The position numbers and the translations under genes were made by a program. Of a DNA stretch of 59,243 nt, positions 47,807 to 56,544 are shown piece after piece. The stretch is from Microcaldota archaeon. GTDB lineage: Archaea > Micrarchaeota > Micrarchaeia > Micrarchaeales > CABMGC01. The notes under the pieces were generated by a model. The model was not told the DNA's origin, did no database searches, and worked only from the letters and a program-made list of their open reading frames with translations. How positions within the stretch are numbered: position 1 is the stretch's first letter; each line of letters begins with the position of its first letter. The stretch lies in the NCBI GenBank assembly GCA_021791245.1, contig JAJYWY010000012.1:1-59243 (forward strand), in the 5' to 3' direction.

Positions 47807-47908
47807 GAAATCGTGACCTCCTCCCATTCGTAAACGGTGTGGGCTTCCTCAGCGACCTGAGAAAGTCAAATTGAAACGCAACGAATGATTAACATGGACC
47901 GAAAAAGT

Positions 47909-48210
47909 TTATAAATTCATAGCGGGAAAACTCCTATCTTTTAGATAGGGATGAAAGCGAAGAATGTGGAAACAAAAAATGCAAGCATAAACATACTCGA
48001 TAGAGCTTTGAACTCTGCGAGTTCAAATTTTGACAGCAAAACTGTCAAAGCTACCGAAGGACATTCGGGAAGTCAAGCCTGTGGAGACAATGTAAGACCT
48101 TCCGCAAGGAAGGCGGTTGCCGAAGAAACAGGAACTATACGGGTGGCAGCATGACGACCAATCATAGCCACTCTGAAAACTCCCAACCTTTAGCTGGGAG
48201 AGGATGTCAC
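47909..48210 (+). mobile_element. ORF-less derivative of the TnpB element, keeping both ends and the omega-RNA region
   Basis: About 302 bases. The first ~63 match the left end of the element at 55548 (TTATAAATTCATAGCGG, a CTCCTATC hairpin, GATGAAAGCGAAGAATGTGG). The remaining ~235 match its right end with about 4 substitutions, covering the last ~60 tnpB codons, the noncoding tail and the terminal hairpin CCCAACC/GCTGGG plus AGAGGATGTCAC. The tnpB body is deleted between GTGGAAA and AATGCAAGC. It has what an omega-RNA and element mobilised in trans would need. Its would-be guide starts TAGGAAAAATAG. Confidence 0.88.
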
Positions 48211-48391
48211 TAGGAAAAATAGAAAAGGAAACTTCAGGATTTGCAGGCCATCACATGTCAAAATGCAGACCATCGCGCAAAACAGCGGAATTAGTCTTCC
48301 GTCGTAACGCTTCGTTGATTGTGGAAGGGCACTTCTTTTATATGCTATTAATAAAATATTTTTTGTATAAAAAACATTAAACATAACTAGG

Positions 48392-55547: not shown

Positions 55548-56510
55548 TTATAAATTCATAGCGGAAAAAACTCCTATCTTTTAAATAGGAGATGAAAGCG
55601 AAGAATGTGGAAAAAGTATATAAATTTTAATAGTATAATAGATATGGTCGTCATGAAAACTGCATATAAGTATCGTGCATATCCTTCAAAGGAACAGAAG
55701 GCAACACTCAATCGGCAGATGCTCCTTTCAAAGGAACTCTATAATCTGCTTCTCGAAAAGTCAAAGGCATACTATAAGGAAACAGGTAAAACCCTGACAG
55801 AATACAGAATGAATGTCTGGATTACGCAAACAAAAAAGGAAAAACCAGAATTTACCGAACTGCACTCGCAGGTTCTCCAGAATGTCTCAAGAAAGAGAAA
55901 AGGCTCTCGCAATAGAAAGAAGGCGGTAATAAGATTCTCAAGATACTCGGAGCACATTGCAAGAATAAGGCAGGATTACCTTCACAAACTTTCATACAAT
56001 CTTACCCACTCATATTCGTTAATCGCATACGAGGATTTAGAAATACCGAACATGGTGAAAAACCGAAGATATGCAAAGTCAATAAGCGAATCTTCTTGGG
56101 GGAACTTTACTCAAATGCTACAATACAAGGCTGAAAGTGCTGGTTGCGTAGCGGTTGTGGTAAACCCCCAATATACCACAATGACTTGCGGCAATTGTGG
56201 AAATGTGCAGAAAGTGTCAATATCGCAAAGGACATTCATCTGCGAGAAGTGTGGTATGAGAAAGGACAGGGATATAAATGCAAGCATAAACATACTCGAT
56301 AGAGCTTTGAACTCTGCGAGTTCAAATTTTGACAGCAAAACTGTCAAAGCTACCGAAGGACATTCGGGAAGTCAAGCCTGTGGAGACGACGTAAGACCTT
56401 CCGCAAGGAAGGCGGTTGCCGAAGAAGCAGGAACTATATGGGTGGCAGCATGACGACCAATCATAGCCACTCTGAAAACTCCCAACCTTTAGCTGGGAGA
56501 GGATGTCACT
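55548..56510 (+). mobile_element. TnpB (IS605-type) element carrying an internally deleted nuclease gene
   Basis: About 963 bases from TTATAAATTCATAGCGG to AGAGGATGTCAC. The left-end hairpin is CTCCTA/TAGGAG (~55571-55591), the right-end hairpin CCCAACC/GCTGGG. It contains one gene (tnpB, deleted form) and no TnpA transposase. The right ~235 bases, gene end plus tail, form the likely omega-RNA. Its right end lies 35 bases before tRNA-Val; the guide position begins TAATATTTTGAG. Confidence 0.9.
55653..56453 (+). CDS. tnpB: TnpB nuclease lacking the RuvC-I segment
   Basis: About 266 residues; intact TnpB proteins have ~370-400. The N-terminal part (KTAYKYRAYPSKEQKATLNRQM) runs normally to HSQVLQNVS, then jumps straight to RKRKGSRNRKKA, which normally follows the RuvC-I motif. 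The barrel part with GIDLG-like RuvC-I Asp is missing. RuvC-II Glu (IAYEDLEI), the CGNCG/CEKCG zinc ribbon and RuvC-III Asp (DRDINAS) remain. The frame is open to the end. The protein is probably unable to cut DNA but might still bind RNA. A longer in-frame start at 55605 overlaps the left end. Confidence 0.85.
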   Translation: MKTAYKYRAYPSKEQKATLNRQMLLSKELYNLLLEKSKAYYKETGKTLTEYRMNVWITQTKKEKPEFTELHSQVLQNVSRKRKGSRNRKKAVIRFSRYSEHIARIRQDYLHKLSYNLTHSYSLIAYEDLEIPNMVKNRRYAKSISESSWGNFTQMLQYKAESAGCVAVVVNPQYTTMTCGNCGNVQKVSISQRTFICEKCGMRKDRDINASINILDRALNSASSNFDSKTVKATEGHSGSQACGDDVRPSARKAVAEEAGTIWVAA

Positions 56511-56544
56511 AATATTTTGAGGCAAGTATACGAAACGCATGCAT

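Follow-up and report, generated by a model that had tools for sequence, protein, structure and literature searches.

A core-deleted, non-autonomous IS200/IS605 element that retains its omega-RNA segment in an archaeal genome

A short stretch of archaeal DNA that keeps the two ends and the RNA-coding part of a TnpB element, with the gene itself gone, raises the question of whether it is a mobile element, an RNA-only guide locus or a dead remnant. The window analysed, 59,243 nucleotides long, is contig C41 of a genome that comprises 42 contigs and 838,607 bases. The earlier note had described an ORF-less element with both ends and the omega-RNA region, matching only the left ~63 and right ~235 bases of the element at 55.5 kb with about 4 substitutions in the right part. 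A genome-wide BLAST with 47909-48214 as query bore this out, returning two blocks on the 55.5-kb element: query 1-64 (94%, 55548-55613, E 6e-21) and query 69-304 (98%, 56276-56511, E 4e-115), the right block differing between the two copies by exactly 4 substitutions. The similarity is far beyond chance. Positions 47909-48210 (302 bp) thus constitute an internally deleted IS200/IS605 (IS1341/TnpB-type) element, in which a left end (LE) of ~64 bp is joined to ~235 bp of the right end (RE). LE, RE and a complete omega-RNA were all found, while 302 bp is too short to encode a transposase and the sole coding trace is a start-less remnant of the tnpB 3′ end. The element, its flanks and the neighbouring copy comprise the following features.

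47905..47912, + strand: presumed target or TAM-like motif at the left junction (...GTTTAT/AAATTC), recognised from family left ends in the genome, with the exact cut position presumed
47909..47972, + strand: LE, ~64 bp, 94-98% identical to the LE of longer copies and 100% to that of a second short copy on contig C42
47931..47951, + strand: LE near-terminal palindrome CTCCTAT-CTTTTAG-ATAGGGA, read from the sequence
47967..47987, + strand: deletion junction GTGGAAACAAAAAATGCAAGC, joining LE to tnpB codon ~372 (tblastn start aa 372), identical in the C42 short copy
47977..48154, + strand: start-less tnpB 3′ remnant, aa ~372-429 plus TGA (tblastn)
48049..48210, + strand: omega-RNA segment overlapping the tnpB 3′ end and RE (family covariation, per-sequence pairing check, model match E 3e-48)
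48180..48200, + strand: RE near-terminal palindrome and last omega-RNA hairpin CTCCCA-ACCTTTAGC-TGGGAG (helix 6, covarying)
48210, + strand: right border, ...GGATGTCAC, common to the right ends found
48211..48230, + strand: flank that would serve as guide, TAGGAAAAATAGAAAAGGAA, assigned from its position 3′ of RE, with a putative function
55548..56509, + strand: neighbouring longer copy (alignment, tblastn against the C33 copy, Pfam)

Family left ends in this genome read TT followed by ATAAATTCATAGCG with 0-1 mismatches, and the right ends found in the genome stop at the equivalent of 48210, beyond which the flank is unrelated. As read from the occupied site, the ends (ATAAATTC.../...GATGTCAC) do not form inverted repeats, and the flanks show no duplication. 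Near-terminal palindromes related to IS605-type ends are present in LE and RE, as in the longer copies; the LE palindrome at 48 kb is 1 base shorter than in most LEs. Rfam gave no match to the element at gathering score, HPnc0580 being sub-threshold (26.3 vs 37 bits). The left junction and first element bases (47905-47916) read TTTATAAA, which is archaeal TATA-like; a box of this kind, created at a TTAT-type insertion, could drive transcription into the element if it has the role that its sequence suggests.

A genome-wide search for further short copies, as the earlier note had proposed, yielded one at C42:8779-9080, 94% identical to the 48-kb copy and with the identical deletion junction. The flanks of the two are unrelated to each other, the C42 copy lying between ileS and a methylthiotransferase-like gene (gene names by reading translations). 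Both copies have TT before ATAAATTC and end at GTCAC, and their LE hairpins share a one-base change. Because the identical junction recurs at C42 between unrelated flanks, there is good support for regarding 47909-48210 as a palindrome-associated transposable element (PATE), mobile but non-autonomous. The suggestion of a small non-autonomous element made from the window is thus strengthened by the shared junction, the unrelated flanks and canonical borders of both copies, and the presence of TnpB and TnpA genes at other loci of the genome. A non-transpositional copying route could in principle also have produced two short copies. The LE variant at the junction, GAAACAAAAA, differs from that of the intact copy and resembles the LE at C11:42150, and we infer a single deletion in an older copy whose product moved later. 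An exact-junction scan of viral contigs gave no matches; the same scan of genome contigs gave two, in Rickettsiales and Gallionella MAG contigs, which had only the 21-mer in common and were rejected as chance. In a perfect hairpin within the element, TGACAG-CAAAA-CTGTCA (loop at 48037-48041), the loop of the C42 copy is the reverse complement TTTTG (L021 ~1408-1412), a micro-inversion inside an inverted repeat.

BLAST detected ~20 pieces of this element in the genome, many cut by contig ends. The copy at C33:13971-15362 has an uninterrupted 429-aa frame (C33:14017-15304) with the RuvC motifs GIDLG/EDLE/RDIN and the zinc-finger cysteines, and its TnpB is apparently intact; its ends match those of the short element and its omega-RNA is near-identical. 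The 55.5-kb copy, which the earlier note had used as the full element, proved to be a deletion derivative itself: its TnpB frame (55605-56453) has lost 138 residues in frame (aa 101-238) between CAGAATRTCTCAA direct repeats, and with them the RuvC-I motif GIDLG. An open 282-codon frame remains, with HTH, TNB and zinc finger kept, and probably specifies a dead nuclease. Y1 TnpA genes are found at C38 and C8 (131 aa, open to the contig end), with an LE organised in the same way ahead of them (CATAGCGAGAAA-hairpin-GGATGAAAGCG). The RE of the TnpA-bearing element is unreadable at the contig ends, and the match of that TnpA to the short-element ends is presumptive. Judged by these genes, candidate helpers in trans exist for the short element, in the form of the C33 TnpB and the two Y1 TnpAs. 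Other core-deleted copies with other junctions lie at C7:3022, C11:40150, C20:27.6k and 12.4k, and C27:67685. In a further genome, G013, a copy considered as the autonomous TnpA+TnpB parent was rejected, its LE being interrupted by a different insertion sequence, and the TnpA-linked TnpB of G013:C1 is a distant sibling.

The structure of the RNA was assessed on an alignment of 36 sequences of the family, taken from this genome and its relatives and covering the last 162 nt. The family structure comprises five helices and a short loop-to-3′-end pairing (GACA with TGTC); it is paired in 95.3% of cells, with double-sided changes in 16 of 32 pairs, the covariation for which the earlier note had called. 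None of 500 shuffles reached the observed percentage paired, and pairing fell below 50% when partners were slid. On the strength of this pairing, the double-sided changes and the loss on sliding, the segment is a genuine omega-RNA structure; the covariation support does not extend to the GACA/TGTC pairing, where double-sided changes are absent. Since single-sequence folding is unexceptional (z -1.4), the evidence for structure rests on covariation. The 48-kb copy can form 32/32 of the family pairs and the C42 copy 31/32.

Omega-RNA matches were listed in 60 genomes; among the matches listed (at least 150), 89 have a TNB domain just upstream, 15 lie at contig starts and 46 have none, an approximate split, since contig ends hold many of the 46. 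Among the TNB-less loci with flanking sequence, several have lost the core between LE and RE (e.g. L141, L144, L148, L152, L153, L156 and L175). One related genome, G025, holds three near-identical RNA-only copies in different flanks and one truncated copy (L143, L149, L150 and truncated L155; contigs C2, C47, C24 and C13); these elements of ~300 nt comprise a left palindrome and an omega-RNA but no TnpB. Omega-RNA-bearing core-deleted derivatives are therefore recurrent. On C28, G025 additionally encodes a TnpB (400-aa frame) that comes with an omega-RNA of its own. At L144 and L148 (G042:C1:285775 and 245966), a different core-deleted TnpB element occurs twice, its N- and C-terminal parts fused in frame in the same way. 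The search for a Y1 TnpA in G042, a single-contig genome with ~20 omega-RNA loci, found none.

Is the RNA itself selectively kept? The earlier note had also raised an RNA-only guide locus, in which omega-RNA and flank guide would direct TnpB in trans, under selection for element retention or for a host target, e.g. the S-layer region. The complete omega-RNA in both short copies, the reality of the structured family RNA and the intact TnpB with a near-identical omega-RNA in the same genome speak for such a locus. Against it, the 48-kb and 55.5-kb copies differ at 4/162 positions in the omega part and at 0/72 in the adjacent pre-omega tnpB remnant; the RNA is thus not specially conserved, this comparison revealing no constraint on it beyond that on the surrounding element, and the near-unchanged RNA end, from which an RNA function had been argued, reflects a low divergence that is not RNA-specific. 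The 48-kb copy has three private alleles in common with its 55.5-kb neighbour 8 kb away, and LE and junction in common with C42. This mixed allele sharing points to gene conversion or recombination, and the low divergence is better explained by recent origin and gene conversion than by RNA function. Moreover, two genomes from a single genus carry an LE+omega remnant without an ORF at the orthologous site (L156, G021:C31; L152, G036:C18), and it is decaying faster than its flanks: most element windows are 82-93% identical (7-18% divergence) against 95-98% (2-5%) in most flank windows. Helices are lost in other short or truncated copies (G024short, G042i), and a search with the 18-nt guide from 48 kb gave 9 sites at ≤3 mismatches versus 13 for a reversed control, so that no second target stands out, the best site (2 mismatches, on C20) lacking the TTAT motif. 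The noted position, 150-240 bases before the S-layer promoter, is real; no regulatory link accompanies it, and the sister copy lies by ileS. A selected RNA-only function at 48 kb accordingly finds no support and is unlikely, although guide activity may occur.

The locus could instead be a dead, immobile remnant formed by local deletion of a full element, with C42 an independent deletion or a non-transpositional copy. Most IS605 copies in the genome are indeed broken or remnants, yet the two short copies agree exactly in their junction, down to the odd AAACAAAAAA segment, and in the LE hairpin change, and their unrelated flanks and canonical borders argue for movement after deletion; we regard this explanation as quite improbable. 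The locus is very probably a core-deleted non-autonomous IS200/IS605 element that has kept its omega-RNA, is presumably moved by TnpA in trans and has presumably had its RE homogenised by gene conversion. An internal deletion brought LE up to the final ~58 codons of tnpB, and the product, with one and the same junction, now occupies two sites that are unrelated. A Y1 TnpA from elsewhere in the genome would recognise the LE and RE hairpins and move the short element as single-stranded DNA into a TTAT-type site, the empty site at 48 kb being predicted to read GTTTAT/TAGGAAAAATAG; gene conversion may then have made the RE sequence uniform with that of neighbouring copies. Overlap in bases with RE and the adjoining 3′ end of tnpB would be the main reason why the omega-RNA is kept.

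Should it be transcribed, this RNA could conceivably load the intact C33 TnpB and cut the element's own emptied donor site. Work by Meers in 2023 reportedly found that TnpB with omega-RNA cuts emptied donor sites. The short element could accordingly be a parasite of two enzymes, borrowing TnpA to move, and TnpB with its own omega-RNA and flank guide to cut the emptied donor and be copied back, an extension that we consider conceivable but doubtful.

Near-identical PATEs (LE, tnpB 3′ end and RE) have been published, and the 48-kb element belongs to this known kind. The term PATE was introduced for Haloquadratum elements that have IS605 ends and no transposase, some derived by core deletion and one keeping a C-terminal coding segment (PMC3119063). 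Those of H. walsbyi, especially the HqIRS71 type, resemble the present element in having near-terminal palindromes as in IS605-type elements and, as read at the occupied site here, no terminal inverted repeats, in their core deletion, C-terminal coding remnant and length too short for a transposase, and in their presumed mobilisation in trans; they belong to another archaeal lineage (PMC3119063), whereas an omega-RNA has been identified and covariation-tested in the 48-kb element. In the bacterium Halanaerobium hydrogeniformans, a PATE-like element of 271 nt, made up of an LE of 28 nt, the final 58 nt of tnpB and the full RE of 160 nt, has almost the same anatomy but is a single copy (PMC7290912), while two copies of the 48-kb type share the junction and their tnpB remnant is longer (~175 nt). 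The omega-RNA, reRNA or sotRNA of IS200/IS605 TnpB systems is likewise a structured RNA over the tnpB 3′ end and RE with a guide from the 3′ flank (PMC8612924, PMC10278001, PMC12558985); unlike these, the 48-kb element lacks a TnpB gene of its own, and its RNA is a predicted one.

The main lesson is that near-identity of the RNA end alone is no evidence of RNA-only function. Omega-RNA-bearing, protein-free IS605 derivatives are here documented as recurrent, and sometimes multi-copy, in a group of small-genome archaea, and the short element offers a natural system for asking whether TnpB-guided retention works in trans. Were the two-enzyme proposal true, an RNA-bearing PATE would gain TnpB-driven retention without encoding a protein, and the multi-copy RNA-only elements in G025 would represent the same strategy.
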